Source: Wolfiporia cocos (lineage: Eukaryota > Basidiomycota > Agaricomycetes > Polyporales > Phaeolaceae). Taken from it: a DNA stretch of 64,000 bases. The first letter of the stretch is position 1. The number at the start of each line of letters is the position of its first letter. The stretch spans positions 1 to 64,000 of the forward strand of contig JACCLO010000059.1 in NCBI GenBank assembly GCA_029448655.1, given 5' to 3'. Position numbers and translations under genes: made by a program. Positions 40,165-60,350 of the stretch are shown here, in pieces. Under the pieces are notes generated by a model. The model had not been told where the DNA came from and ran no database searches. It saw only the letters and a program-made list of their open reading frames with translations.

Positions 40165-41055
40165 TGTCACAGATCTGACATTTTTCCGCAATTAATTGCC
40201 ATTTATCCGGTATTTATTACGCATACCTACGAGTTATCCTGTACTTATCAGTACAAGCCGACATGCCGGTGTAACCTAACAGTTATTACCTAAGCCCAAG
40301 AGTGCTTACGCGCTACTAAGCATCTATGACACGGCGCTTACACGCTAGTCATCAAGCATGACATGTTACATGACACTCTGTCACAAGACTAGACCTATGG
40401 TCTATTCTAACCCATGATACCATCATTACAAATAATGATATCATCATGACATCATATGGTCTAGCCCCTGGCTATGACATCACTATGATGTAACCCCTTC
40501 GTCATCATTACCAATTATGACACCATTGGACCTAGGCCTACAGCCCAGTCCAATCCATAGCACGCCATCATTACACAATAATGGCATCACTATTCTAGAC
40601 CCATGGTCTAGTACATTCCATGACATCATCATTTCCAATCATGACGTCATTATGATCCAGGCCTCCGGCCCGGTAACCATGTATGCGGATCTTCTGATCC
40701 ATCCCTCGTATCTTACTGGCTAAGTCCATTACTGGCTAGCATGGTCACTATAGATACCTATGCATGATGCCTTATCGCATCATTATGATATACGGATGGT
40801 GCCATACTGACACCATCGCCTTATGCAAGCATATGACTAACACGTTTAGGGTAGGACCATTCCCTTACTTACGTAATCAAGTATAAGCATGTATATAAGA
40901 TAGGGCTTAACGCCTTTAGTCGTTAGTTCTGTTCTTCTAGGCGCTGCGCGCCCTAGAAGAACTTCACCTCTCTTCTGCGCGCCTTCTGACTGCTTGCCTG
41001 CTTATTCCCCTCACCTTGTGGATTAGGCGGTGAGTCCCACAGTTAGATCTGGTCA
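40165..41055 (+). mobile_element. Solo LTR, 891 bp, TSD CATCT, inside RNase H
   Basis: Bounded by CATCT at 40160-40164 and 41056-41060. Removing the LTR and one CATCT joins ...RRQAR to WALYLS in frame. TATA box GTATATAAG near 40891 is followed by AGTTCTGTTCTTCTAG and a 14-bp hairpin (40931-40962) with one bulge. Confidence 0.96.
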
Positions 41056-41143
41056 CATCTTGCCTGTCTCCTGGTGAGCTTCTGAGCCGTCTTGAAGTAG
41101 GTTAGGTTCAGATGATCCGACCATACTTCGAATTTTTCCGGGT
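41056..41143 (-). pseudogene. Isolated piece of chromovirus RNase H
   Basis: The 88 bp between the two insertions read, on the minus strand, [15 protein letters not shown], then [12 protein letters not shown]. This is the RNase H segment with the conserved D (xWTDHxNL) that is missing between EWQHYLEGHP at 57102 and WALYLS at 40164, which proves both insertions lie in one element. Confidence 0.93.
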
Positions 41144-42237
41144 TGTCACAGATTTATCTGGGGCTTACAGCATTTTTCCTACGATTATAGCAATTTACCT
41201 GGGATTTATACGTCTAACTACAAGTTATCTACGGGTTAACTCCCATTGCCACCACGACAAGCTCTTAACTGGGCTTATCACCACATGACCAGCATACATA
41301 ACGCTACGGCACCTTCCGGTCCAATAGCATAGTTACAGCTACGTCATAAAGGTCTCGCCCGTCAGAGCAAGACCAGCCACGTCATAGATCGTAGATCATA
41401 ATGATAGGCCGAGCGCGGCACGCTCGCATAATAATGTCCACATGTACAAACAGTGCCTCGCGGCCTTGTACTATTGGGTCGGCCTTCCCGGCTTCCCACC
41501 GCCATAAGATCCTTGATCACAATGGCACCTCAGGCGCGCCACGCCTTCGCATAATAATGGCAACACGGCCAAATAGCACTATATTAGCATCAAGGCAATA
41601 TCGCTATAGGCTCGGCCTTCTCGGCCATCTCACGGACTCGGCGTTCTCCAAGTCCCGGGCTTCTGCCATCACGGCGCTGCCCAAACACCGGTCCTCGCCT
41701 CACGGCTAAGACCAATACATGCCCCGGTAACCATCCGGACCGGGCTGTAACACATGCCACGGTACTACCCGTCCAATGGCATAACGACCTCGGCGTCTCG
41801 CCTTGGTCATCCAACGAAGCACGGCCAATCGCCATTATGCCGCAAGGTATCCGGCAACCGGCTTCACCTATACCCGGGCTGCGCCCGCGTTAGTATCACA
41901 GATAAGACATAATCCCTCTATTACGATTGGGTCGGCCATTAGGGCCTTCCACGGCCATTCTAGATAGAGTAACTAAACATCAGATAAGATAAAGCTTCGC
42001 CACTTGGCAAAGCCACATAACCCGGTAAGGCAACCGCTAGCTAGTAGCACGTGCCCTCCCGACACAATGTATATAAGTAGGAGCCAAGCGCTCTTTAACT
42101 TCAGTTCTATTCTTCTCGGCGTACGCCGTAGAAGAACCTCCTACCTCCTACTGCGTCTGATAACCTCTTCCTCACCTAAGTCGCCTAGTTCATCGCAGGA
42201 TACTGGCTTGGTGAGTCCCACAGAGCCATCTGTGTCA
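41144..42237 (+). repeat. LTR1 of the array (1094 bp)
   Basis: Starts TGTCACAGATTTATCTGGGG and ends CCATCTGTGTCA. TATATAA at 42070-42076; self-primer AGTTCTATTCTT at 42103-42114; hairpin TTCTTC-T-CGGCG/CGCCG-T-AGAAGAA at 42109-42136 (one bulge); U5 hairpin CACAGA/TCTGTG at 42219-42234. Short frames in it are chance. Confidence 0.95.
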
Positions 42238-45200
42238 TAAGAATAGAACTACCTACCCCCTGCGCCTCCTTAACTGGTGGCGCCTGGGTTTTTCCTCCAA
42301 CAGGTGTCTGAGATAGCGCAGGGGCCGCCTACTCTCCTGCAAAGGGGATGTATGCTCCGTGGTTGCGGATTGGGATACATCGGCGGCGGGCTTAGCGGCC
42401 TGCTGCCACCCAGTGGGGCGCTGCTTGCCTAATCAGCAGCATGCGTCCTGCGAACCCGGACTCCAGGGTTAAGGAGAGGCGCCGGCTTCCTGACAAGGTT
42501 GCTGGTGCCAGCGGTTGAGACCCGCCTATTGGGAAAAGGGGACCGTCTGCCTGTGTGCGCGCAGCCCCCTGTCTTGGCAATCCCTGTTCAGGGACCCAAC
42601 ACTACCAGTAGGATCCCCATAGGGATATGCGCTTCGGCGTATTCCCTTAGTTGGGTGTGGGAATCTTCCAAAGCCGCCCCCCAGGCGTAAGGGGCCCGCT
42701 TGGGATCTCCTTCGGGGAATCCAAGTGGTGAGGTGGTGCGGCTCGCAAGGCCAAACCAGCCGAGGTCACTCGCGGTAGCCAATAGCGTAAGTCCTACGGG
42801 CAGCTCGGTGTGCGAGCCTGGGTTAAACCGAGTTGGGGCCCCACCGGAAGCATGCGGCGTTGCCCACCATCCTTGATGTGTGGAGCGCTCGTGAATGCGC
42901 GATCTTAGATCGACGGATGGTTTTTTAGCCCTGATGTGACACCCAGGTGGCTATAGATGGCAAGCCTTACCACTAAAGCGCGGACCGGTCGCGGTGTAAT
43001 ACTGCGACCACTTTCCAGCTCATCTCCACGAGGAAATGGGCTGTCCTATTCCCAACCATGTGACCCAGCTTATCAAGCGCTGGCAGTCACCGACTCTCTT
43101 TCTAGAAGGAAGTCGCGCGCTTCGATGAAGACACCTGTCGGCTAAATTCCGCGCGGCGTCCTGACAAGGGCGCCCCTAACCATGCCCCCGTTCTTCTTGT
43201 GTTAGACATGACCACTCAGCGTTGATCGCTGATGATGAGCTCTCTTTCAGGTACCCTGGTATCCCAGTCAATAAGTAGATAAATATGTAGTTTTAGTGGC
43301 GGCTCCTAGTAGCTTACTTACTTTGTAAAGTAGCTTAGAAACCGTCCAATAGCATTTGTATTCGCCTCTGGAAATCCTGCGTCACCTGCTGGTTCCCAGG
43401 TTATCTAGCCTGGTTAAGGTCGCTTATGTACATATAAAGCAACCTTTTACGTCTTAGGTACAATAAGTCAATCGAAAAAACGATACTAGTACCTTACTCG
43501 ACGTAGGATCGCGTACGCTTGGCAAACATATGCTTATAACTATTATTACTATGGGAATGCCTAAGTACCAAGTCGATTAAGATTCTTAATCTATCGGCGC
43601 CCGTTTGACTTCGGTCTTCGCTCCTGAAAAGGGGATTCGGGTTATTGAGCATCTGTCATTTGGTCACATGTCACAAAGAACCTTAGAACGGGGGCACCCC
43701 TTTTGGTAATGGAATTCCTGACAAGGAAATTACCATCCGATTGGGAAGAGACGTCTGACAAGCGTATAAATAATTGGGTACAGCGCTGTTTCCACCAGCC
43801 ACCCATGTACAAACAGATCGCAACAAGATTACTTCATTGAATCTTGCAATCTGGGTTAGAGGAAAGGAAAACAAGGGACACACGCTATTAATACGCGTTC
43901 CCTTGAAGTGTAGCGGAGGCCGCAAGGCTTCTAGAATCACACTTCATTCGGCATTCTCGCACAATCGCCGAATCTACACCGGTTTCCAACCGGTCCCCCC
44001 TGTATTGAAGTCGACAATTTCGCACGCCAATCGCAAAATTCGTCACGAGGCTAGCTACCTCACTTTTGATTTCACTTCGATTCAACTTTTCTCTGTGGGG
44101 AGAATAACCGAATTCGAAAAATACACCTTAGCAACTCAATGCGATCGTCCGCAAAAGGTCTCGAAGAAGCACTCGAAAACTTCCAGAGAAACAAGGGAGT
44201 CCCCCTTATTAATTCAATCAAGCCGATTTGGCAATCGGTTATCATTTAATTGCTTGGTTTACGGAAACCTACGCCGTCGAGACGCGTAATAAATAAATCC
44301 GGATCTGTATCCTTACGTCAAGAAAGGATTACATCTCGTCACTACATCGAATATGGGCCTGGAAACCCTTCGATTCCGACAAACTAGGGCTTGGAAACCT
44401 TAGTATAAAAATCTGGTCGCATATGCGAGCGACTACACTGGATACAGCCGTATATGGATATACGTCAAGAATACCTTCGGCCCACATCCACCCACCCTTA
44501 TCTGGGTAGAGGCGGTTTAACCTCTTTAAAAACCAAAAACCATCTGGATAGGTTTGATCGGGAGATCAAACGTGAAAGAGGGGGTGGAAACCCTAATTTC
44601 GCACCTAGGACCTTAACAAGTCCACTATCCCACGCTTACAAATGAACCTTACGGTCATTAAAGCAACAAACGACATGCACTAAGAGGCCCGATTACCCTC
44701 ATTCATGCTCGTACTGTCCTATTCGTATATGGACGACAACCCTGTAATAGGAATATAGTAGCTATCTATCCAATAGCGAAATATACCCTTCCCCAACGAT
44801 CATCCCAGTTCCCACGCTTACAATGTCATACTCAATCGAAGAACGACTTTAACGACATACAAGCACATTGGAAACTACCGTCATCGCCACCATGGACTTC
44901 AGCCCTTACGGATACACCTAGACGAGACAACTCCTGACAAGGATGTATGTTCTCACGGTTACCCAATAAGGCCTCACTACGGCAACGACACTACAGTATC
45001 AGGGAATACAATCATAAGCATTGACCATAATGCACAATGATTAGTACTTATACTATGGGGTTTTACACGAGAAGCCTACTCGTTAATAAATAAGTGCATA
45101 CAACAACGAAGGCACAGCTTCATTCCGGAACTTACGACTCCGAAGAGATCGCTACGTAGAAGCAATCTAACTAGGGGACACAACCCTGTAACAAATGGGC

Positions 45201-46081
45201 ATTGACAAATGTCACACGCTTAGTACTTGCGATACTAGGGAGGCGACGCCTCATAAACGTTCATAAGGCGACGCCCTTTAATAACCGTTCAAACCGCATA
45301 AGTCGTACAAAGTAGGATTACCCCTGTACAAGCACAAAGCCTAAGACACCGCCCGCGAACGAAGGAACTTGCAATCCCATTCACCGCTAGGCAATAGACG
45401 TCGAAAAAGCACCGCTATGTCACACTCAATGGGTACTACGCATAAGCAACATATCCGCCCAAGGGCTCGAAGAGACACTAGAAAATCTCCAGAGCTAACA
45501 GTGAAGCCCTCACTCTAAGGAATATCGCACAATGCTATCCGAAATACGTACAACGACACAATGCACCCTCTAATACGCTTGGCAAGCTATTGGAGATACA
45601 GATTACAGTATTCAAAGGCACTATATGATGACCATTTCCATATCGCCTTCTCTACGAGTAACGTCATAAGCAAAGCAATAATCCGACAAGGTCGCGAAAG
45701 GCACTAGAACACCTTCAGCGATAACAGGAGAGTCCCTCCTCTTAGGATCCGCATGCACAATGACAGCACACTCTAGTAACACGACTACATCTCCCTAACA
45801 ACGGCATTTGACCTTTCGGTCATCACGCGTTGATAATCGCTAGTAACGGCATTTAGCACTTCGCTATCACGCGTTACAAATCACTATAAGGAATAAAATC
45901 GCCTTCCACGCTCAGGTTCCACCACAAGTCCTGAAACTCCCATTTATCCCTGTTCAATTGACAAATTGAAGCAGCACCATAACGGCATTTGACACTTCGT
46001 CATCACGCGTTATACCGCTCTTGGGACGTACACAATGAGGAATAGTTTCATCAGGGACGATGAAACCTAAAGCGGGGGTAA
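42238..46081 (+). other. Non-coding internal domain, unit 1 (3844 bp)
   Basis: Begins with the primer site TAAGAATAGAACTACC and ends with the polypurine tract AAAGCGGGGGTAA. The longest frames show no domain and are broken between units by indels, so it is not coding. It is dense in short hairpins, among them GTTTGATC/GATCAAAC near 44550 and GTTTCATC/GATGAAAC at 46045-46066. Structured modules are at 44159-44207, 45465-45514, 45692-45740 (type A) and 45799-45832, 45844-45876, 45980-46012 (type B). Confidence 0.85.
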
Positions 46082-47182
46082 TGTCACAGAGTTCTCTGGG
46101 CTTACAGCATTTTTTCCCTACGATTATAGCAATTTACCGGGATTTATACGTCTAACTACAGTTATCTACGGGTTAACTCCCCATTGCCACCACGACAAGC
46201 TCTTAACTGGGCTTATCACCACTATGACAGCTTACATAACGCTACGGACACCTCCGGTCCAATAGCATAGTACGGCTACGTCATACAGGTCTCGCCCGTC
46301 AGAGCAAGACCAGCCACGTCATAGATCCTAGATCATAATGATAGGACGAGCGCGGGCACGCTCGCATAATAATGTCCACAAGTACAAACAGTGCCTCGCG
46401 GCCCTTGTACTATGGGTCGGCCTTCCCGGCTTTCCCACGCCATAAGATCCTTGATCACAATGGCACCTCAGGCGCGCCCCGCCTTCGCATAATAATGGCA
46501 ACACGCCCAATAGCACTATATTAGCATCAAGGCAATATCGCTATAGGCTACGGCCTTCTCGGCCTCTCACGGACTCGGCGTTCTCCAAGTCCCGGGCTTC
46601 TGCCATCACGGCGTTGCCAAACACCGGTCCTCGCCTCACGGCTAAGACCAAACAATGTCCCGGTAACCTTCCGGTCCGGGCATATCACATGCTACCACTG
46701 GTACCTACCGGTCCAATGAGCATAACGACCTCGGCGTCATCGCCTTGGTCATCAACGAAGCACGGCCAATCGCCATTATACCTCACTGGTATCCGGCAAC
46801 CGGCTTCACTCTATACCCGGGCTGCGCACCGCTGTTAGCATCACAATAAGACATAATCCCTCTATTACGATTGGTCGGCCATTAGGGCCTTCCACGGCCA
46901 TTCTAGATAGAGTAACTAAACATCAGATAAGATAAGCTTCGCCACTTGGCAAAGCCACATAACCCGGTAAGGACCTAGCTAGGCTAGTAGCACGTGCCCT
47001 CCCGATACACATGTATATAATTAGGAGCCAAGCGCTCTATAACTTCAGTTCTATCTTCTCGGCGTACGCCGTAGAAGAACCTCCACCTCACTACCGCGTC
47101 TGATAACTCTACCTCACCTAGTTCGCCTTAGTTCATCGCAAGGATACTGGCTTGGTGAGGTCCCACAGAGCCATCTGTGTCA
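46082..47182 (+). repeat. LTR2 of the array (1101 bp, many small indels)
   Basis: Same layout as LTR1 but with frequent one-base insertions and deletions, often in homopolymers (CATTTTTTCCC versus CATTTTTCC). This may reflect age or an unpolished long-read consensus. TATA appears as TATATAATTAGG. Confidence 0.93.
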
Positions 47183-49108
47183 CGGAATAGAACTACCTAC
47201 CCCCCTGCGCCTCCTTAACTGGTGGCGCCTGGGTTTTTCCTCCAACAGGTGTCTGAGATAGCGCAGGGGCCGCTACTCTCCTGCAAAGGGGATGTATGCT
47301 CCGTGGTTGCGGATTGGGATACATCGGCGGCGGGCTTAGCGGCCTGCTGCCACCCAGTGGGGCGCTGCTTGCCTAATCAGCAGCATGCGTCCTGCGAACC
47401 CGGACTCCAGGGTTAAGGAGAGGCGCCGGCTTCCTGACAAGGTTGCTGGTGCCAGCGGTTGAGACCCGCCTATTGGGAAAAGGGGACCGTCTGCCTGTGT
47501 GCGCGCAGCCCCCTGTCTTGGCAATCCCTGTTCAGGGACCCAACACTACCAGTAGGATCCCCATAGGGATATGCGCTTCGGCGTATTCCCTTAGTTGGGT
47601 GTGGGAATCTTCCAAAGCCGCCCCCCAGGCGTAAGGGGCCCGCTTGGGATCTCCTTCGGGGAATCCAAGTGGTGAGGTGGTGCGGCTCGCAAGGCCAAAC
47701 CAGCCGAGGTCACTCGCGGTAGCCAATAGCGTAAGTCCTACGGGCAGCTCGGTGTGCGAGCCTGGGTTAAACCGAGTTGGGGCCCCACCGGAAGCATGCG
47801 GCGTTGCCCACCATCCTTGATGTGTGGAGCGCTCGTGAATGCGCGATCTTAGATCGACGGATGGTTTTTTAGCCCTGATGTGACACCCAGGTGGCTATAG
47901 ATGGCAAGCCTTACCACTAAAGCGCGGACCGGTCGCGGTGTAATACTGCGACCACTTTCCAGCTCATCTCCACGAGGAAATGGGCTGTGTATCCTATTCC
48001 CAACCATGTGACCCAGCTTATCAAGCGCTGGCAGTCACCGACTCTCTTTCTAGAAGGAAGTCGCGCGCTTCGATGAAGACACCTGTCGGCTAAATTCCGC
48101 GCGGCGTCCTGACAAGGGCGCCCCTAACCATGCCCCCGTTCTTCTTGTGTTAGACATGACCACTCAGCGTTGATCGCTGATGATGAGCTCTCTTTCAGGT
48201 ACCCTGGTATCCCAGTCAATAAGTAGATAAATATGTAGTTTTAGTGGCGGCTCCTAGTAGCTTACTTACTTTGTAAAGTAGCTTAGAAACCGTCCAATAG
48301 CATTTGTATTCGCCTCTGGAAATCCTGCGTCACCTGCTGGTTCCCAGGTTATCTAGCCTGGTTAAGGTCGCTTATGTACATATAAAGCAACCTTTTACGT
48401 CTTAGGTACAATAAGTCAATCGAAAAACGATACTAGTACCTTACTCGACGTAGGATCGCGTACGCTTGGCAAACATATGCTTATAACTATTATTACTATG
48501 GGAATGCCTAAGTACCAAGTCGATTAAGATTCTTAATCTATCGGCGCCCGTTTGACTTCGGTCTTCGCTCCTGAAAAGGGGATTCGGGTTATTGAGCATC
48601 TGTCATTTGGTCACATGTCACAAAGAACCTTAGAACGGGGGCACCCCTTTTGGTAATGGAATTCCTGACAAGGAAATTACCATCCGATTGGGAAGAGACG
48701 TCTGACAAGCGTCTATAAATAATTGGGTACAGCGCTGTTTCCACCAGCCACCCATGTACAAACAGATCGCAACAAGATTACTTCATTGAATCTTGCAATC
48801 TGGGTTAGAGGAAAGGAAAACAAGGGACACACGCTATTAATACGCGTTCCCTTGAAGTGTAGCGGAGGCCGCAAGGCTTCTAGAATCACACTTCATTCGG
48901 CATTCTCGCACAATCGCCGAATCTACACCGGTTTCCAACCGGTCCCCCCCTGTATTGAAGTCGACAATTTCGCACGCCAATCGCAAAATTCGTCACGAGG
49001 CTAGCTACCTCACTTTTGATTTCACTTCGATTCAACTTTTCTCTGTGGGGAGAATAACCGAATTCGAAAAATACACCTTAGCAACTCAATGCGATCGTCC
49101 GCAAAAGG

Positions 49109-49158
49109 TCTCGAAGAAGCACTCGAAAACTTCCAGAGATAACAAGGGAGTCCCCCTT
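49109..49158 (+). other. Structured RNA module type A, first copy in unit 2
   Basis: Exactly 50 nt: outer stem TCTC/GAGA, internal loop GAA/CA, inner stem GAAG/CTTC, apical loop CACTCGAAAA, then TAAC and a second hairpin AAGGG-AGTCC-CCCTT. The loops are shared with the other copies while the stems differ. Confidence 0.8.
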
Positions 49159-50422
49159 ATTAATTCAATCAAGCCGATTTGGCAATCGGTTATCATTTAA
49201 TTGCTTGGTTTACGGAAACCTACGCCGTCGAGACGCGTAATAAATAAATCCGGATCTGTATCCTTACGTCAAGAAAGGATTACATCTCGTCACTACATCG
49301 AATATGGGCCTGGAAAACCCTTCGATTCCGACAAACTAGGGCTTGGAAACCTTAGTATAAAAATCTGGTCGCATATGCGAGCGACTACACTGGATACAGC
49401 CGTATATGGATATACGTCAAGAATACCTTCGGCCCACATCCACCCACCCTTATCTGGGTATAGAGGCGGTTTAACCTCTTTAAAAACCAAAACCATCTGG
49501 ATAGGTTTGATCGGGAGATCAAACGTGAAAGAGGGGGTGGAAACCCTAATTTCGCACCTAGGACCTTAACAAGTCCACTATCCCACGCTTACAAATGAAC
49601 CTTACGGTCATTAAAGCAACAAACGACATGCACTAAGAGGCCCGATTACCCTCATTCATGCTCGTACTGTCCTATTCGTATATGGACGACAACCCTGTAA
49701 TAGGAATATAGTAGCTATCTATCCAATAGCGAAATATACCCTTCCCCAACGATCATCCCAGTTCCCACGCTTACAATGTCATACTCAATCGAAGAACGAC
49801 TTTAACGACATACAAGCACATTGGAAACTACCGTCATCGCCACCATGGGACTTCAGCCCTTACGGGATACACCTATACGAGACAACTCCTGACAAGGATG
49901 TATGTTCTCACGGTTACCCAATAAGGCCTCACTACGGCAACGACACTACAGTATCAGGGAATACAATCATAAGCATTGACCATAATGCACAATGATTAGT
50001 ACTTATACTATGGGGTTTTACACGAGAAGCCTACTCGTTAATAAATAAGTGCATACAACAACGAAGGCACAGCTTCATTCCGGAACTTACGACTCCGAAG
50101 AGATCGCTACGTAGAAGCAATCTAACTAGGGGACACAACCCCTGTAACAAATGGGCATTGACAAATGTCACACGCTTAGTACTTGCGATACTAGGGAGGC
50201 GACGCCTCATAAACGTTCATAAGGCGACGCCCTTTAATAACCGTTCAAACCGCATAAGTCGTACAAAGTAGGATTACCCCTGTACAAGCACAAAGCCTAA
50301 GACACCCGCCACGCGAACGAAGGAACTTGCAATCCCATTCACCGCTAGGCAATAGACGTCGAAAAAGCACCGCTATGTCACACTCAATGGGTACTACGCA
50401 TAAGCAACATATCCGCCCAAGG

Positions 50423-50472
50423 GCTCGAAGAGACACTAGAAAATCTCCAGAGCTAACAGTGAAGCCCTCACT
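50423..50472 (+). other. Structured RNA module type A, second copy in unit 2
   Basis: 50 nt: outer stem GCTC/GAGC, internal loop GAA/CA, inner stem GAGA/TCTC, loop CACTAGAAAA, TAAC, second hairpin AGTGA-AGCCC-TCACT. Confidence 0.8.
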
Positions 50473-50655
50473 CTAAGGAATATCGCACAATGCTATCCGA
50501 AATACGTACAACGACACAATGCACCCTCTAATACGCTTGGCAAGCTATTGGAGATACAGATTACAAGTAGATTCAAAGGCACTATATGATGACCATTTCC
50601 ATATCGCCTTCTACTACGAGTAACGTCATAAGCAAAAGCAATAATCCGACCAAGG

Positions 50656-50705
50656 TCGCGAAAAGGCACTAGAACACCTTCAGCGATAACAGGAGAGTCC
50701 CTCCT
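50656..50705 (+). other. Structured RNA module type A, third copy in unit 2
   Basis: 50 nt: outer stem TCGC/GCGA, internal loop GAA/CA, inner stem AAGG/CCTT, loop CACTAGAACA, TAAC, second hairpin AGGAG-AGTCC-CTCCT. Confidence 0.8.
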
Positions 50706-50763
50706 CTTAGGATCCGCATGCACAATGACAGCACACTCTAGTAACACGACTACATCTCCCTAA

Positions 50764-50977
50764 CAACGGCATTTGACCTTTCGGTCATCACGCGTTGATA
50801 ATCGCTAGTAACGGCATTTAGCACTTCGCTATCACGCGTTACAAATCACTATAAGGAATAAAATCGCCTTCCACGCTCAGGTTCCACCACAAGTCCTGAA
50901 ACTCCCATTTATCCCTGTTCAATTGACAAATTGAAGCAGCACCATAACGGCATTTGACACTTCGTCATCACGCGTTA
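50764..50977 (+). other. Three structured RNA modules type B in unit 2
   Basis: Copies at 50764-50797, 50809-50841 and 50945-50977. Each has an outer stem (CAACG/CGTTG in the first, TAACG/CGTTA in the others), internal loop GCATT/TCACG, inner stem (TGAC/GTCA, TAGC/GCTA, TGAC/GTCA) and a loop of CTTTCG or ACTTC. Confidence 0.78.
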
Positions 50978-51046
50978 TACCGCTCTTGGGACGTACACAA
51001 TGAGGAATAGTTTCATCAGGGACGATGAAACCTAAAGCGGGGGTAA

Positions 51047-52142
51047 TGTCACAGATTTATCTGGGGCTTACAGCATTTTTCCTACGATTATAGCAATTTA
51101 CCTGGGATTTATACGTCTACCTACAAGTTATCTACGGGTTAACTCCCATTGCCACACGACAAGCTCTTAACTGGGCTATCAACCACATGACCAGCTTACA
51201 TAACGCTACGGCACCTTCCGTCCAATAGCATAGTACAGCTACGTCATACAGGTCTCGCCCGTCAGAGCAAGACCAGCCACGTCATAGATCTTAGATCATA
51301 ATGATAGGCCGAGCGCGGCACGCTCGCATAATAATGTCCACAAGTACAAACAGTGCCTCGCGGCCTTGTACTATTGGGTCGGCCTTCCCGGCTTCCCACC
51401 GCCATAAGATCCTTGATCACAATGGCACCTCAGGCGCGCACGCCTTCGCATAATAATGGCAACACGACCATACAGCACTAGATTAGCATCAAGGCAATAT
51501 CGCTATAGGTCACGGCCTCCTCGGCCTCCCACGGACTCGGCGTTCTCCAAGTCCCGGGCTTCTGCCATCACGGCGTTGCCCAAACACCGGTCCTCGCCTC
51601 ACGGCTAAGACCAATACTATGTTCCCGGTAACCATTCCGGACCGGACATATCACATGCTACGGTACCTTCCCGTCCAATAGCATAACGACCTCGGCGTCT
51701 CGCCTTGGTCATCCAACGAAGCACGGCCAATCGCCATTATGCCGCAAGGTATCCGGCAACCGGCTTCACCTATACCCGGCTGCGCCCGCGTTAGCATCAC
51801 AATAAAGACATAATCCCTCTATTACGATTGGGTCGGCATTAGGGCCTTCCACGGCCATTCTAGATAGAGTAACTAAACATCAGATAAGATAAGCTTCGCC
51901 ACTTGGCAAAGCCACATAACCCGGTAAGGACAACGCTAGCTAGTAGCACGTGACCTTCCCGCTACACATGTATATAAGTAGGAGCCAAGCGCTCTTATAA
52001 CTTCAGTTCTATTCTTCTCGGCGTACGCCGTAGAAGAACCTCCTACCTCCTATTGCGTGTCTGATAACCTCTACCTCACCTAAGTCGCCTTAGTTCATCG
52101 CAGGATACTGGCTTGGTGAGTCCCACAGAGCCATCTGTGTCA
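51047..52142 (+). repeat. LTR3 of the array (1096 bp)
   Basis: Same layout as LTR1 with a few substitutions and indels (for example CGTCTACCTACAAG for CGTCTAACTACAAG). Confidence 0.94.
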
Positions 52143-55100
52143 TAAGAATAGAACTACCTACCCCCCTGCGCCTCCTTAACTGGTGGCGCCTGGGTTTTTC
52201 CTCCAACAGGTGTCTGAGATAGCGCAGGGGCCGCTACTCTCCTGCAAAGGGGATGTATGCTCCGTGGTTGCGGATTGGGATACATCGGCGGCGGGCTTAG
52301 CGGCCTGCTGCCACCCAGTGGGGCGCTGCTTGCCTAATCAGCAGCATGCGTCCTGCGAACCCGGACTCCAGGGTTAAGGAGAGGCGCCGGCTTCCTGACA
52401 AGGTTGCTGGTGCCAGCGGTTGAGACCCGCCTATTGGGAAAAGGGGACCGTCTGCCTGTGTGCGCGCAGCCCCCTGTCTTGGCAATCCCTGTTCAGGGAC
52501 CCAACACTACCAGTAGGATCCCCATAGGGATATGCGCTTCGGCGTATTCCCTTAGTTGGGTGTGGGAATCTTCCAAAGCCGCCCCCCAGGCGTAAGGGGC
52601 CCGCTTGGGATCTCCTTCGGGGAATCCAAGTGGTGAGGTGGTGCGGCTCGCAAGGCCAAACCAGCCGAGGTCACTCGCGGTAGCCAATAGCGTAAGTCCT
52701 ACGGGCAGCTCGGTGTGCGAGCCTGGGTTAAACCGAGTTGGGGCCCCACCGGAAGCATGCGGCGTTGCCCACCATCCTTGATGTGTGGAGCGCTCGTGAA
52801 TGCGCGATCTTAGATCGACGGATGGTTTTTTAGCCCTGATGTGACACCCAGGTGGCTATAGATGGCAAGCCTTACCACTAAAGCGCGGACCGGTCGCGGT
52901 GTAATACTGCGACCACTTTCCAGCTCATCTCCACGAGGAAATGGGCTGTGTATCCTATTCCCAACCATGTGACCCAGCTTATCAAGCGCTGGCAGTCACC
53001 GACTCTCTTTCTAGAAGGAAGTCGCGCGCTTCGATGAAGACACCTGTCGGCTAAATTCCGCGCGGCGTCCTGACAAGGGCGCCCCTAACCATGCCCCCGT
53101 TCTTCTTGTGTTAGACATGACCACTCAGCGTTGATCGCTGATGATGAGCTCTCTTTCAGGTACCCTGGTATCCCAGTCAATAAGTAGATAAATATGTAGT
53201 TTTAGTGGCGGCTCCTAGTAGCTTACTTACTTTGTAAAGTAGCTTAGAAACCGTCCAATAGCATTTGTATTCGCCTCTGGAAATCCTGCGTCACCTGCTG
53301 GTTCCCAGGTTATCTAGCCTGGTTAAGGTCGCTTATGTACATATAAAGCAACCTTTTACGTCTTAGGTACAATAAGTCAATCGAAAAACGATACTAGTAC
53401 CTTACTCGACGTAGGATCGCGTACGCTTGGCAAACATATGCTTATAACTATTATTACTATGGGAATGCCTAAGTACCAAGTCGATTAAGATTCTTAATCT
53501 ATCGGCGCCCGTTTGACTTCGGTCTTCGCTCCTGAAAAGGGGATTCGGGTTATTGAGCATCTGTCATTTGGTCACATGTCACAAAGAACCTTAGAACGGG
53601 GGCACCCCTTTTGGTAATGGAATTCCTGACAAGGAAATTACCATCCGATTGGGAAGAGACGTCTGACAAGCGTCTATAAATAATTGGGTACAGCGCTGTT
53701 TCCACCAGCCACCCATGTACAAACAGATCGCAACAAGATTACTTCATTGAATCTTGCAATCTGGGTTAGAGGAAAGGAAAACAAGGGACACACGCTATTA
53801 ATACGCGTTCCCTTGAAGTGTAGCGGAGGCCGCAAGGCTTCTAGAATCACACTTCATTCGGCATTCTCGCACAATCGCCGAATCTACACCGGTTTCCAAC
53901 CGGTCCCCCCCTGTATTGAAGTCGACAATTTCGCACGCCAATCGCAAAATTCGTCACGAGGCTAGCTACCTCACTTTTGATTTCACTTCGATTCAACTTT
54001 TCTCTGTGGGGAGAATAACCGAATTCGAAAAATACACCTTAGCAACTCAATGCGATCGTCCGCAAAAGGTCTCGAAGAAGCACTCGAAAACTTCCAGAGA
54101 TAACAAGGGAGTCCCCCTTATTAATTCAATCAAGCCGATTTGGCAATCGGTTATCATTTAATTGCTTGGTTTACGGAAACCTACGCCGTCGAGACGCGTA
54201 ATAAATAAATCCGGATCTGTATCCTTACGTCAAGAAAGGATTACATCTCGTCACTACATCGAATATGGGCCTGGAAAACCCTTCGATTCCGACAAACTAG
54301 GGCTTGGAAACCTTAGTATAAAAATCTGGTCGCATATGCGAGCGACTACACTGGATACAGCCGTATATGGATATACGTCAAGAATACCTTCGGCCCACAT
54401 CCACCCACCCTTATCTGGGTATAGAGGCGGTTTAACCTCTTTAAAAACCAAAACCATCTGGATAGGTTTGATCGGGAGATCAAACGTGAAAGAGGGGGTG
54501 GAAACCCTAATTTCGCACCTAGGACCTTAACAAGTCCACTATCCCACGCTTACAAATGAACCTTACGGTCATTAAAGCAACAAACGACATGCACTAAGAG
54601 GCCCGATTACCCTCATTCATGCTCGTACTGTCCTATTCGTATATGGACGACAACCCTGTAATAGGAATATAGTAGCTATCTATCCAATAGCGAAATATAC
54701 CCTTCCCCAACGATCATCCCAGTTCCCACGCTTACAATGTCATACTCAATCGAAGAACGACTTTAACGACATACAAGCACATTGGAAACTACCGTCATCG
54801 CCACCATGGGACTTCAGCCCTTACGGGATACACCTATACGAGACAACTCCTGACAAGGATGTATGTTCTCACGGTTACCCAATAAGGCCTCACTACGGCA
54901 ACGACACTACAGTATCAGGGAATACAATCATAAGCATTGACCATAATGCACAATGATTAGTACTTATACTATGGGGTTTTACACGAGAAGCCTACTCGTT
55001 AATAAATAAGTGCATACAACAACGAAGGCACAGCTTCATTCCGGAACTTACGACTCCGAAGAGATCGCTACGTAGAAGCAATCTAACTAGGGGACACAAC

Positions 55101-56007
55101 CCCTGTAACAAATGGGCATTGACAAATGTCACACGCTTAGTACTTGCGATACTAGGGAGGCGACGCCTCATAAACGTTCATAAGGCGACGCCCTTTAATA
55201 ACCGTTCAAACCGCATAAGTCGTACAAAGTAGGATTACCCCTGTACAAGCACAAAGCCTAAGACACCCGCCACGCGAACGAAGGAACTTGCAATCCCATT
55301 CACCGCTAGGCAATAGACGTCGAAAAAGCACCGCTATGTCACACTCAATGGGTACTACGCATAAGCAACATATCCGCCCAAGGGCTCGAAGAGACACTAG
55401 AAAATCTCCAGAGCTAACAGTGAAGCCCTCACTCTAAGGAATATCGCACAATGCTATCCGAAATACGTACAACGACACAATGCACCCTCTAATACGCTTG
55501 GCAAGCTATTGGAGATACAGATTACAAGTAGATTCAAAGGCACTATATGATGACCATTTCCATATCGCCTTCTACTACGAGTAACGTCATAAGCAAAAGC
55601 AATAATCCGACCAAGGTCGCGAAAAGGCACTAGAACACCTTCAGCGATAACAGGAGAGTCCCTCCTCTTAGGATCCGCATGCACAATGACAGCACACTCT
55701 AGTAACACGACTACATCTCCCTAACAACGGCATTTGACCTTTCGGTCATCACGCGTTGATAATCGCTAGTAACGGCATTTAGCACTTCGCTATCACGCGT
55801 TACAAATCACTATAAGGAATAAAATCGCCTTCCACGCTCAGGTTCCACCACAAGTCCTGAAACTCCCATTTATCCCTGTTCAATTGACAAATTGAAGCAG
55901 CACCATAACGGCATTTGACACTTCGTCATCACGCGTTATACCGCTCTTGGGACGTACACAATGAGGAATAGTTTCATCAGGGACGATGAAACCTAAAGCG
56001 GGGGTAA
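52143..56007 (+). other. Non-coding internal domain, unit 3 (3865 bp)
   Basis: Matches unit 2 at an offset of 4961 bp. Type A modules at 54070-54119, 55384-55433, 55617-55666; type B at 55725-55758, 55770-55802, 55906-55938. Ends with AAAGCGGGGGTAA before LTR4. Confidence 0.88.
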
Positions 56008-57101
56008 TGTCACAGATTTATCTGGGGCTTACAGCATTTTTCCTACGATTATAGCAATTTACCTGGGATTTATACGTCTAACTACAAGTTATCTACGGGT
56101 TAACTCCCATTGCCACCACGACAAGCTCTTAACTGGGCTTATCACCACATGACCAGCATACATAACGCTACGGCACCTTCCGGTCCAATAGCATAGTTAC
56201 AGCTACGTCATAAAGGTCTCGCCCGTCAGAGCAAGACCAGCCACGTCATAGATCGTAGATCATAATGATAGGCCGAGCGCGGCACGCTCGCATAATAATG
56301 TCCACATGTACAAACAGTGCCTCGCGGCCTTGTACTATTGGGTCGGCCTTCCCGGCTTCCCACCGCCATAAGATCCTTGATCACAATGGCACCTCAGGCG
56401 CGCCACGCCTTCGCATAATAATGGCAACACGGCCAAATAGCACTATATTAGCATCAAGGCAATATCGCTATAGGCTCGGCCTTCTCGGCCATCTCACGGA
56501 CTCGGCGTTCTCCAAGTCCCGGGCTTCTGCCATCACGGCGCTGCCCAAACACCGGTCCTCGCCTCACGGCTAAGACCAATACATGCCCCGGTAACCATCC
56601 GGACCGGGCTGTAACACATGCCACGGTACTACCCGTCCAATGGCATAACGACCTCGGCGTCTCGCCTTGGTCATCCAACGAAGCACGGCCAATCGCCATT
56701 ATGCCGCAAGGTATCCGGCAACCGGCTTCACCTATACCCGGGCTGCGCCCGCGTTAGTATCACAGATAAGACATAATCCCTCTATTACGATTGGGTCGGC
56801 CATTAGGGCCTTCCACGGCCATTCTAGATAGAGTAACTAAACATCAGATAAGATAAAGCTTCGCCACTTGGCAAAGCCACATAACCCGGTAAGGCAACCG
56901 CTAGCTAGTAGCACGTGCCCTCCCGACACAATGTATATAAGTAGGAGCCAAGCGCTCTTTAACTTCAGTTCTATTCTTCTCGGCGTACGCCGTAGAAGAA
57001 CCTCCTACCTCCTACTGCGTCTGATAACCTCTTCCTCACCTAAGTCGCCTAGTTCATCGCAGGATACTGGCTTGGTGAGTCCCACAGAGCCATCTGTGTC
57101 A
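56008..57101 (+). repeat. LTR4 of the array (1094 bp)
   Basis: Appears identical to LTR1 by reading, as expected if the two outer LTRs were made in one reverse transcription event. Ends CCATCTGTGTCA followed by the target duplication CGGGT. Confidence 0.95.
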
Positions 57102-58103
57102 CGGGTGACCTTCGAGATAATGTTGCCATTCTTCTAATGCTCGAATTATGGCTAGCATCTCTTTGTCATAAATTTTGTAGTTCCGTTCCGGGGCAGTCAT
57201 GCCTGTGGAATAGAAGGCGCAAGGATTCCATTTCCAACTATCTGGTGACCATTGCGTTAGGACTGCTCCAGTCGCAAAGTCTGATGTGTTGGCTTCTATA
57301 CGGAATTTCTGAATTTTGTCCGGAATATGTAAGATGGGGGCAGTTGTAAAGGCCGCCTTGAGCTTTTGGAAAGCTTCTTCCTGTGCTTCATCCCAATGCC
57401 ATTTCTCCGACTTCTTCATGAGTGTTGTCAGGGGTTTCACAATTTTCAAGAAGTCCTGAATAAACCGCCGATAGAAGTTCGCAAAGCCTAAAAAGGCTTG
57501 AACTTCCTTCACCTTGGTTGGGGTCAGCCAATCTAATACTCCTGATAGTTTCGAGGGGTCCATTTCGACTCTGCCCTTAGAAATTATCATACCCAAATAG
57601 TCGATGCTACTTTTTTCAAAGAAGCATTTCTCGGGTTTGGCATATAGATCATTGTCCCGCAGCCTTTTCAGGACTGCCTTGGTGATTTTGCGGTGTTCCG
57701 CTAAGTCGTTGCCAAAGATCAGTATGTCGTCCAGATAGACTATGACTTTTCCGGTGGCAATGAAATCCTTTAGGACGTCGTTCATCATTGCTTGGAAAGT
57801 CCCTGGCACGTTCTTGAAACCGAAATACATAACCATGGCTTCGTACAACCCCTGTTTAGTAATGAATGCTGTTTTCCATTCATCACCTTCCTTGATACGG
57901 ACGTTGTTGTAACCCCATCTCAGGTCGATCTTAGTAAAGATCGATGCACCTGAGAGTTGGTTGATAAGGTCCGATATCTGGGGTATAGGGTACTTGTTAT
58001 CCACAGTTATTTCGTTCAGCTTCCTGTAATTGATTACCATGCACAAGGTTCCATCTTTCTTGGCAACGAAAAATACTGGGCTGGCCATAGGGGAGCTTGA
58101 ATC
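57102..58103 (-). pseudogene. Chromovirus reverse transcriptase and start of RNase H
   Basis: After the TGA at 58104-58106 the frame reads PMASPVFFVAKKDGTLCMVI, NYRKLNEITVDNKYPIP, IDLRWGYNNVRIKEGDEWK, FGFKNVPGTFQAMMNDVL, then the catalytic VIVYLDDILIFG (the YxDD box), FLGFANFYRRFIQDF and the tether into RNase H, AFYSTGMTAPERNYKIYDKE, ending EEWQHYLEGHP where the array is inserted. RTs of this group are normally continuous with the protease frame upstream. All key residues are present. Confidence 0.95.
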
Positions 58104-59430: not shown

Positions 59431-60350
59431 TGTCACAGATAATGCGAAAGCATAATATCATAGACGTTACGGAGCAATAACTAGGGTACATTACCCGTAC
59501 GTGGCGCCGGCATACATGGCCTACACCATAGAGTGTCTAATAGGCGCCGAGCGTGGGAATATGAACTGCAGATATAGCTGGACCCTCGATAGCAGCATGA
59601 GCTGTTATCGTAGCCCTTTTGGGGGAGTGGCTATTATGCCACTCATAAGCACGTTGCATTGGGTCCGCAGCGCGTCTTGTGATATAATAACAGCTCACCC
59701 GGTCGCCGGTTCGAACCTGGGTGGTGGCAAATATTTCCACTGCCTGGGGCGCTTCCGAACCACTGGCGGCTGAGGGAAAAGTACCCACCACGTGACCCCC
59801 TGTATCATGGGGCCCCTCTATAACCGTAAGGTATCAGGGGATAAGATTGGTCAAAGCTTGCGTGGTAAAAACTACTATTAAATAGCCTTAACCCGCACCC
59901 AAAATCCAGGGTGTAAGTCGGGCCTTCAAGAGGTTGGCACACACGTCATAAGCCAAATGGTATAAGGGATTGGGGGTACCCTTCACCAGGCACAATGACA
60001 AAGCATAGTAGAAGTGATACTTAGTACCGGGGGCGGCTTGATGCAGCCTAAGTTATCTCCTTAACCAGAGACGGTTAATCCTTGAAGTGGGGGTAATGTC
60101 ACAGATAATGCGAAAGCATAATATCATAGACGTTACGGAGCAATAACTAGGGTACATTACCCGTACGTGGCGCCGGCATACATGGCCTACACCATAGAGT
60201 GTCTAATAGGCGCCGAGCGTGGGAATATGAACTGCAGATATAGCTGGACCCTCGATAGCAGCATGAGCTGTTATCGTAGCCCTTTTGGGGGAGTGGCTAT
60301 TATGCCACTCATAAGCACGTTGCATTGGGTCCGCAGCGCGTCTTGTGATA
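59431..60350 (+). mobile_element. Miniature LTR element (TRIM), 254-bp LTRs
   Basis: LTR-A 59431-59684 and LTR-B 60097-60350 are direct repeats (offset 666 bp) starting TGTCACAGATAATGCG and ending CGTCTTGTGATA. Between them lie 412 bp without coding capacity. A primer site ATAACAGCTCA follows LTR-A at 59687-59697, and a polypurine tract GAAGTGGGGGTAA precedes LTR-B. The flanks GCATG and AGTTA do not form a duplication, so one border is rearranged. A tRNA T-arm-like phrase GGTTCGAACC lies at about 59708. Confidence 0.88.

Follow-up and report, generated by a model that had tools for sequence, protein, structure and literature searches.

A protein-less, likely self-priming LTR retrotransposon family of Wolfiporia cocos with repeated, covarying modules in its interior

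For a stretch of 64,000 nucleotides of the basidiomycete Wolfiporia cocos (assembly GCA_029448655.1, contig JACCLO010000059.1), here called the window, a preliminary description reported a repeated 50-nt module whose stems change while its loops are kept, located within a non-coding LTR element. This raises the question whether the stems are maintained by selection on RNA structure and what kind of element carries them. The span described at that time (42238-56007) comprises three internal domains plus the two inner LTRs. The whole element extends from 41144 to 57101 and contains four LTRs and three internal domains:

41139..41143, no strand, left copy of the target site duplication CGGGT, 5 bp, read from the sequence (right copy 57102-57106)
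41144..42237, + strand, first LTR, 1094 bp, TG..CA, 100% identity to the last LTR
42238..46081, + strand, internal domain 1, 3844 bp, non-coding
46082..47182, + strand, second LTR, 92.7% identity to the outer LTRs
47183..51046, + strand, internal domain 2
51047..52142, + strand, third LTR, 95.1% identity to the outer LTRs
52143..56007, + strand, internal domain 3, 3865 bp, reference copy in the comparisons
52143..52965, + strand, G+C-rich 5' part of internal domain 3, collinear blocks of which match the 5' leader of an open-framed Ty3; right boundary approximate
55995..56007, + strand, polypurine tract AAAGCGGGGGTAA, adjoining the last LTR; role assigned by position
56008..57101, + strand, last LTR, 100% identity to the first LTR

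Direct LTRs with TG..CA ends, a target site duplication and a multi-kb interior with primer site and polypurine tract are thus present, as in LARDs, and 5-bp duplications also flank nine of ten monomers elsewhere in the genome. TRIMs have LTRs and an interior of a few hundred bp; with an LTR of 1094 bp and an interior of 3.86 kb, this element is too large for that class. Genome-wide, exact junctions between LTR and interior number 123 and exact LTR 3' ends 341, some of them within repeated segments, and the copy number in this one genome is well over a hundred, distributed over several subfamilies.

The nine modules of the preliminary description, three per internal domain, were all found on the + strand with a covariance model built from the three modules of unit 3. 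Within the window they score between E 3.6e-23 and 3.4e-19, and the next matches lie at E 1.8 and 2.4:

44159..44207, + strand, module 1a (wider span 44149-44215), one base short
45465..45514, + strand, module 1b
45693..45740, + strand, module 1c (wider span 45683-45748), two bases short
49109..49158, + strand, module 2a
50423..50472, + strand, module 2b
50656..50705, + strand, module 2c
54070..54119, + strand, module 3a, P0 not kept
55384..55433, + strand, module 3b
55605..55674, + strand, module 3c including P0 (AUCC/GGAU), three-way junction

The three stems, the kept loops and the spacer agree with the sequence as they had been described, and the length of exactly 50 nt holds for units 2 and 3. 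Unit 1 is the exception, its first and third modules being short by 1 and 2 nt, and seven of the nine copies are intact. A fourth, closing stem, P0, had been overlooked; it makes the module a three-way junction.

When three module copies were compared, all 39 cells were paired, and nine of the 13 pairs varied, always by double changes and never on one side only. None of 500 shuffles reached the observed paired number, double changes or covariation score, whereas the observed variety of pair types was reached in 13 of the 500; when one strand was shifted by 1-3 columns, no double change was left among these three copies. The comparison was extended to divergent subfamilies of the same genome by an alignment of 32 modules (30 distinct) and 17 pairs including P0, drawn from 37 module matches listed. 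Here, 96.7% of the cells are paired and 122 cells are double changes, compared to 34.7 in shuffles. Left out of this set were L039_c, L037_a and C56_751 (one extra base), two L040 matches with indels, window units 1 and 2, two L099 matches, duplicate loci and matches cut by locus ends. Furthermore, a phylogeny-aware all-pairs covariation test, performed with our own R-scape-like script and not with R-scape itself, yielded four pairs at E<=0.05, all four inside the proposed structure. The prediction that homologous subfamilies change their stems with compensation is therefore borne out within this genome, and the view that three covarying stems reflect selection on structure is supported.

Two pattern searches for divergent modules were less productive. 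The first gave 27 matches compared to 67 in the reversed control, none of which was judged real. The second gave 15 compared to 20, including four loci with paired stems (L061, L067, L088 and L082), all later matched by the covariance model.

A second three-copy module, M2, likewise covaries; 10 of the 23 M2 copies found were used. The following list gives its copies and two kinds of hairpin:

55724..55759, + strand, M2 copy 1, outer and inner stem separated by the internal loop GCATT/TCACG
55769..55803, + strand, M2 copy 2
55905..55939, + strand, M2 copy 3
53623..53636, + strand, recurrent hairpin with loop TGACAA, example (others 54848-54859, 55115-55130, 55879-55896)
52892..52914, + strand, hairpin with loop TGTAATA

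In six subfamily sequences and two Ty3 leaders that were compared, the last of these keeps its loop (TGYAATA) while its stem has changed. Hairpins with a GNNA loop on a 4-bp stem occur eight times on the + strand of the window interior, compared to 1.05 in shuffles, and three times on the - strand; the excess on the + strand has the same direction in four of five other interiors, with a tie in L094.

For the whole interior, pairs were taken from the fold of the window sequence alone, and compensatory changes were compared to 40 tree-based null alignments that keep relatedness. In the 5' part, 129 of 454 pairs show compensatory change (null mean 30.4 of about 262, maximum 44), in the middle part 71 of 291 (8.1 of about 149, maximum 15) and in the 3' part 24 of 341 (4.7 of about 232, maximum 10). 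When the 5' part of four other sequences was folded, 101-147 compensated pairs resulted, with null maxima of 40-59. The 5' alignment, for which L038, L042, L048, L051 and L052 were not used, has 21 rows, and 16 of these were tested. An all-pairs test on this part (1502 columns, 16 sequences) revealed nothing significant; three pairs reached E<=1, none of them mainly canonical. Among the changed pairs of the 5' part, the share that remains canonical exceeds the null maximum in only one of five reference folds (C56, 0.444 vs. 0.425; window copy, 0.467 vs. 0.469). Since this share lies mostly within the null, the single-sequence folds contain many wrong pairs. The folding energy of the + strand in 150-nt windows (mean z -1.0 to -1.2) is no lower than in the flanks (-1.07 and -1.11). 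The preliminary description is amended here as well: the module is no isolated signal but belongs to a structured interior of ~3.86 kb.

The evidence on the selected strand is mixed. G-U and A-C cells number 151:107 in the 5' part, 42:36 in the middle and 19:41 in the 3' part, and pair types common to at least two sequences number 28:13, 2:5 and 0:1, respectively. These counts do not settle the strand, and the consensus folding energy is lower for the minus strand in the middle and 3' parts. With the excess of G-U over A-C among shared types confined to the 5' part, selection at the level of RNA rather than DNA is inferred and not observed.

The interior does not look coding. The longest open frames of the three window copies (126, 126 and 171 aa) lie within the range of 50 shuffles (87-175), there is no gag/pol coding capacity, again as in LARDs, and the interior alignments carry many indels of 1-2 nt. 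Substitutions in distant subfamilies are even over codon positions (94, 91 and 93 in L041; 101, 109 and 107 in C56). In nearer subfamilies they number 16, 18 and 33 (L050) and 16, 17 and 25 (L057) in the longest frame, and the frame with this slight third-position excess is interrupted by indels. A coding origin via a 246-aa open frame in L103 was rejected: indels break it in nine other copies compared, and it shows no codon-position bias in distant subfamilies and a slight third-position excess in near ones.

With regard to known RNAs, the window has no match to any Rfam family at the gathering score, and the comparison with Rfam asked for earlier accordingly leaves the module without a match at that level; three matches at E<5 are far below their gathering scores. 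Retrozymes carry a hammerhead ribozyme in the LTR, and no such ribozyme was found in the window. Neither was a covariance model match to GOLLD, ROOL or OLE, a tRNA or other small-RNA gene, or the tRNA- or 5S-derived LTR sequence of Cassandra, Helenus and Ajax (TRIMp3). In other collections the module pattern matched five viral and two prokaryote contigs. In three near-identical viral contigs 10 of the 13 positions are paired, in the remaining four contigs between 3 and 8, and the best model E is 0.07-0.08. Due to these weak scores and the poor pairing, the matches were taken as chance. A search for a conserved 5' motif among the viral contigs gave no match, and in the open-licence literature no description of the module or the family was found.

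On this sequence evidence, the family is a non-autonomous, protein-less LTR retrotransposon, and it is likely self-priming:

42103..42114, + strand, AGTTCTATTCTT, 3' of TATATAAG in the LTR, predicted R start and self-primer (also at 52005 and 56967)
42239..42250, + strand, primer binding site AAGAATAGAACT (also 52144-52155; altered in unit 2)

AGTTCTATTCTT, the predicted R start, has AAGAATAGAACT as its exact reverse complement, and in two open-framed Ty3 copies R start and primer site have both changed together (AGTTCTATTCAT and ATGAATAGAACT). Levin is said to have described such self-priming in 1995 for Tf1-type elements among the Ty3-type retrotransposons. In common with these, the present family has a primer site immediately inward of the LTR that can pair with the predicted transcript start, and this pairing covaries between the family and the open-framed Ty3. 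It differs from them by the lack of a protein and by its structured interior of 3.9 kb.

This open-framed Ty3 family of the same genome, which was reached through a reverse transcriptase search (43 of 122 scored matches lie inside open frames of at least 1400 aa), is the likely helper. The LTRs of both families start with TGTCACA, and the first ~0.8 kb of the interior weakly and collinearly matches the untranslated leader of the Ty3. A profile of the 5' domain gave six matches, all collinear in two Ty3 leaders, whereas 100 shuffled leaders and 51 pieces of the window gave no match; the best E is 9e-4, and three of the six lie above 0.05. No real match to the module was found in the fetched Ty3 leaders and gag parts (best E 0.31). 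Searches for a helper by LTR end plus primer site gave no match with two patterns, and four matches of a third pattern were antisense R regions of LTRs.

We favor, with slightly more belief than doubt, a protein-less, likely self-priming LTR family whose structured 3.86-kb interior would likely be one giant RNA, probably packaged by Ty3 and copied in trans. The LTRs and target duplications, the self-complementary primer site, the covarying three-way-junction modules and the weak, collinear leader match were read directly from the sequence, as was the absence of a convincing coding signal. Since the stems keep matching changes across divergent subfamilies, the interior probably makes one giant folded RNA. 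We infer that it would be transcribed from the LTR as a single molecule and mobilized by Ty3, and that the interior serves this route. Its 5' domain would supply the leader functions of priming, dimerisation and Gag recruitment, and the inner repeated modules would offer a single protein, in all likelihood the Gag of the helper, multiple equivalent sites for docking. Through such docking the RNA, which would never be held by ribosomes because it has no reading frame, would compete for particles with the mRNA of the helper, and the Ty3 proteins would then package and copy it in trans. According to the consulted parts of two yeast studies, Ty1 and Ty3 supplied with helper proteins need no more than a few hundred nt of their 5' end and about 70-360 nt of their 3' end (PMC4974528, PMC11381356). 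Therefore, packaging alone would not explain 3.9 kb. A bolder version, in which the interior is the largest known ornate ncRNA class, a multivalent scaffold of ~3.9 kb that nucleates Gag particles (or its own RNA cage) and takes over the Ty3 helper particles, seems improbable to us.

The excess length over these yeast ends, the construction from repeated modules and the GNNA hairpins on the + strand would also fit an RNA with a cellular function of its own (assembly, sequestration or regulation, as in large ornate phage RNAs), for which the LTR shell is a mere vehicle. However, LTR sequence lies beside the interior at 22 of 22 places examined, with a search pattern that itself required an LTR end, shorter versions exist whose interiors measure about 2.2 and 2.5 kb, and no host effect is known; we consider this reading unlikely. 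It is also quite unlikely that the stems are kept at the level of DNA or mutationally, with template switching in reverse transcription or repair correcting the two arms of a hairpin against each other and so producing perfect Watson-Crick stems in the absence of selection on RNA. Such correction would account for module changes that are nearly all from Watson-Crick to Watson-Crick with few G-U cells, and for shared G-U types that do not exceed A-C in the middle and 3' parts. It does not explain why the unpaired parts (loops, internal loops, spacers) stay the same on either side of the changing stems; moreover, P0, which encloses about 60 nt and two hairpins, covaries as well, and shared G-U types do exceed A-C in the 5' part. 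An ordinary decayed element with stems by chance or shared ancestry would agree with the unremarkable folding energy and the empty all-pairs test on the 5' part. Nevertheless, compensatory changes in the module, M2 and the interior are far above nulls that keep relatedness, and for the module the significant all-pairs test contradicts this explanation, which is very improbable.

Among known systems, LARDs such as Sukkula in grasses share the LTRs, the long non-coding interior without gag/pol and the presumed dependence on autonomous elements, and three LARD families are reported for the basidiomycete Laccaria bicolor (PMC3411680). Covariation tested against phylogenetic nulls and repeated three-way-junction modules are not described in the LARD passages of the sources. 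Tandem Cassandra/TRIM arrays of plants are likewise non-autonomous, head-to-tail, with shared LTRs and a proposed RNA structure, but the Cassandra LTR carries 5S RNA sequence (PMC7215508, in part). Helenus and Ajax, some of them fungal, are non-autonomous LTR elements with 5-bp duplications as well, and differ by tRNA- or 5S-derived sequence in their LTRs (PMC10886601, in part). GOLLD, ROOL and OLE are also very large ornate ncRNAs, the former two carried by phages or prophages; according to the sections consulted, they are bacterial or phage RNAs, far shorter (659 nt in a ROOL example, many GOLLD over 800 nt), and form oligomeric complexes shown by cryo-EM (PMC12286853); the present element has no Rfam match. 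In the genomic RNA of yeast Ty3 the 5' end is structured too and serves priming, dimerisation and packaging, and mini-elements move with helper proteins in trans; in contrast to the present family, Ty3 is coding, tRNA-primed and needs a few hundred nt in cis, as far as these excerpts go (PMC11381356, PMC4974528). A protein-less LTR element with a folded RNA is a known kind, namely a LARD; what appears to be new in the literature searched is the repeated three-way junction, together with the evidence of covariation.

Protein-less LTR elements are usually viewed as passive cargo. Here, stems are kept over almost 4 kb, far past the cis needs of the yeast elements, which suggests that the RNA itself plays an active part in its spread. 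With well over a hundred copies, several subfamilies and a candidate helper in one genome, this question is testable, and the modules offer compact, clear targets for probing structure and assaying protein binding.

The module, a unit of about 50 nt, is present in three copies (a, b and c) in each of the three interiors of the window array, as the preliminary description had claimed. The array lies at:

41144-57101, + strand: LTR-interior-LTR-interior-LTR-interior-LTR array, inserted in a minus-strand Ty3 gene

Nine of the 13 pairs vary among copies a, b and c, and each change is two-sided, which bears out the covarying stems described. The length of 50 nt holds for the copies of units 2 and 3; in the first unit two modules are 1 and 2 nt short. 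The three stems proposed are present, and a fourth, closing stem (P0) additionally pairs the module flanks around them, so that the module is a three-way junction. P0 reads GUCC/GGAC in copy a and AUCC/GGAU in copy c, is shorter in copy b and is lost in copy a of the window.

A gap-free alignment of 32 modules (30 distinct, 76 columns) revealed 96.7% paired cells in comparison to 75.1% in shuffles, and 122 double-change cells in comparison to 34.7 in shuffles and at most 8 in slid versions. At least one double change occurs in 14 of 17 pairs. Further pair types (24) are not above shuffles (27.6), and the weakest stem is P0, 89.2% paired, the outermost pair of which fails in 10/30. Furthermore, an R-scape-like test was performed with our own script (G statistic with APC), using 200 null alignments in which substitutions were permuted along the branches of a FastTree tree. 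Here, four pairs reached E<=0.05 and six E<1, all of them within the proposed structure.

A second repeated module, M2, occurs three times in the window (55724-55939). Its 10 distinct copies are 93.0% paired (82.8% in shuffles) and contain 13 double-change cells (4.0 in shuffles), with double changes in 6 of 10 pairs. For the whole interior, the reference fold was obtained from the window sequence alone with gap-rich columns removed, therefore covariation did not shape it, and 40 nulls were used per part. Of the 454 pairs in the 5' part, 129 carry compensatory changes, compared with 30.4 of about 262 in the nulls (maximum 44); the middle part has 71 among 291 pairs (nulls 8.1 of about 149, maximum 15) and the 3' part 24 among 341 (nulls 4.7 of about 232, maximum 10). 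The corresponding RNAalifold energies are -769 (-496 to -517 in four nulls), -233 (-145 to -166 in three) and -462 (-346 to -372 in three). However, an all-pairs covariation test of the 5' part gave nothing significant, changed pairs retained in this part exceed the null maximum in just one of five reference folds, and 150-nt folding energies of the interior resemble those of the flanks, all of which counts against a whole-interior structure.

A coding interior was rejected. Nearer subfamilies show some third-position excess in the longest-frame region (16, 18 and 33 substitutions by codon position in locus L050), and the distant ones are even (94, 91 and 93 in L041; 101, 109 and 107 in C56). 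This even spread and the frame-breaking indels, not multiples of three, in all nine sequences compared decided against it.

Three features, namely the promoter motif in the LTR, the primer site and the polypurine tract, place the transcript on the + strand. As an independent strand test, G-U and A-C pair types were compared within helices agreed by both strands. Types common to at least two sequences number 28 vs 13 (5' part), 2 vs 5 (middle) and 0 vs 1 (3'), those seen once 37 vs 30, 21 vs 15 and 6 vs 6. For the 5' part consensus folding with G-U favors +, for the middle and 3' parts -; GNNA loops in the window interior number 8 on + and 3 on -. Selection likely acts at the RNA level, which the G-U/A-C counts do not prove.

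The window array is flanked by a 5-bp target duplication (CGGGT). Its outer LTRs are identical across 1094 bp, whereas the inner ones are 92.7% and 95.1% identical to them, which looks as if the trimer was inserted as a single unit. Head-to-tail arrays with a period of about 4.96 kb are also found at C1:4742088-4757011 and on contigs C31, C38 and C52. A related family is represented in the same disrupted Ty3 gene by a solo LTR (TGTCACAG..GGTCA, window 40166-41056, duplication ATCTT), and the flanking sequence contains a perfect 254-bp direct repeat (59431-59684 and 60097-60350). A search with the reverse transcriptase (RT) of the disrupted Ty3 yielded 1698 candidates, including 122 scored matches. 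Of the 122, 45, on contigs numbered C7 to C73, are the same truncated gene with the identical cut point (window 57102-58088, minus), and several contigs carry it at the very same coordinates. This suggests that the window locus belongs to a segment with many repeats, which may be subtelomeric or may reflect an assembly effect. Among the named matches to the disrupted Ty3 protein are Trametes, Wolfiporia, Grifola, Ganoderma, Lyophyllum, Lentinula and Amanita, which points to a mushroom-forming fungus as the probable host.

The genome searched for relatives (64.4 Mb, 76 contigs) holds 123 exact LTR-interior junctions, 341 exact LTR 3' ends and nearly identical interiors (40 scored among 229 candidates), part of which sit within one repeated segment. 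The primer-site pattern with a different following base occurs in 22 places, all with LTR and interior start, and 21 with a further interior match. The exception, L038 (C1:3823577-3826594), is an element copy cut about 30 nt into the interior by an open-framed Ty3, 97% identical to its family members L132 and L133. Over the first 1.5 kb, twenty sequences are 58-99% identical to the window copy. The interior is short in the L089 and L091 subfamilies (about 2.2 and 2.5 kb) and still includes the 5' domain together with one or more modules. In the L050, L057 and L094 families divergence from the window copy is unequal between the 5' and 3' halves (about 77-82% vs 90-91%), suggesting that subfamilies have recombined.

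The 5-bp duplications are perfect in 9 of 10 monomers, at different sites. The tenth (about C11:455738 to 461797; L124, L125) has the right flank of the L109 copy on C1, which suggests ectopic recombination between copies. The LTR is followed by AAGAATAGAACT, the reverse complement of AGTTCTATTCTT, which stands downstream of the TATA motif within the LTR. The open-framed Ty3 family, the candidate helper, has the R start AGTTCTATTCAT and the primer site ATGAATAGAACT in the two copies with 5' ends read; this pairing, kept despite a two-sided change, supports self-priming. Of the 122 scored RT matches, 43 fall within frames that stay open for 1400 aa or more. The LTRs of the element and of this Ty3 both start with TGTCACA (that of Ty3 from the copy in L038).

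The 5' domain of the element is probably related to a Ty3 leader, judging from matching blocks and a shared hairpin. The Ty3 leader (about 690 nt) matches the profile of this domain in three collinear blocks (profile 4-128, 409-441 and 695-821); the matches number six in total (best E 9e-4, three with E above 0.05), and 100 shuffled leaders and 51 pieces of the window gave none. A hairpin with a TGYAATA loop is common to the window copy (A3), L050, L094, L041, L040, C56 and the Ty3 leaders, with differing stems. Ty3 leaders and the gag part read contain no real module (one match, E 0.31); two strong matches were rejected as the element itself adjoining truncated Ty3 genes.

Passages on yeast Ty elements describe priming, dimerisation and packaging signals in leaders, and mini-elements requiring just a few hundred nt in cis (PMC11381356, PMC4974528). 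In the element, the interior past the 5' domain stands where gag-pol would be and consists of repeated modules, which may offer multiple equivalent sites for docking, with the Gag of the helper as the likeliest partner. In the literature searched, no description was found of a large retrotransposon derivative (LARD) that repeats a three-way junction or whose structure was demonstrated through covariation. Since yeast mini-elements require so little in cis, plain packaging needs no 3.9 kb. An interior of this length would mean either that the family benefits from many sites or that the RNA serves another function.
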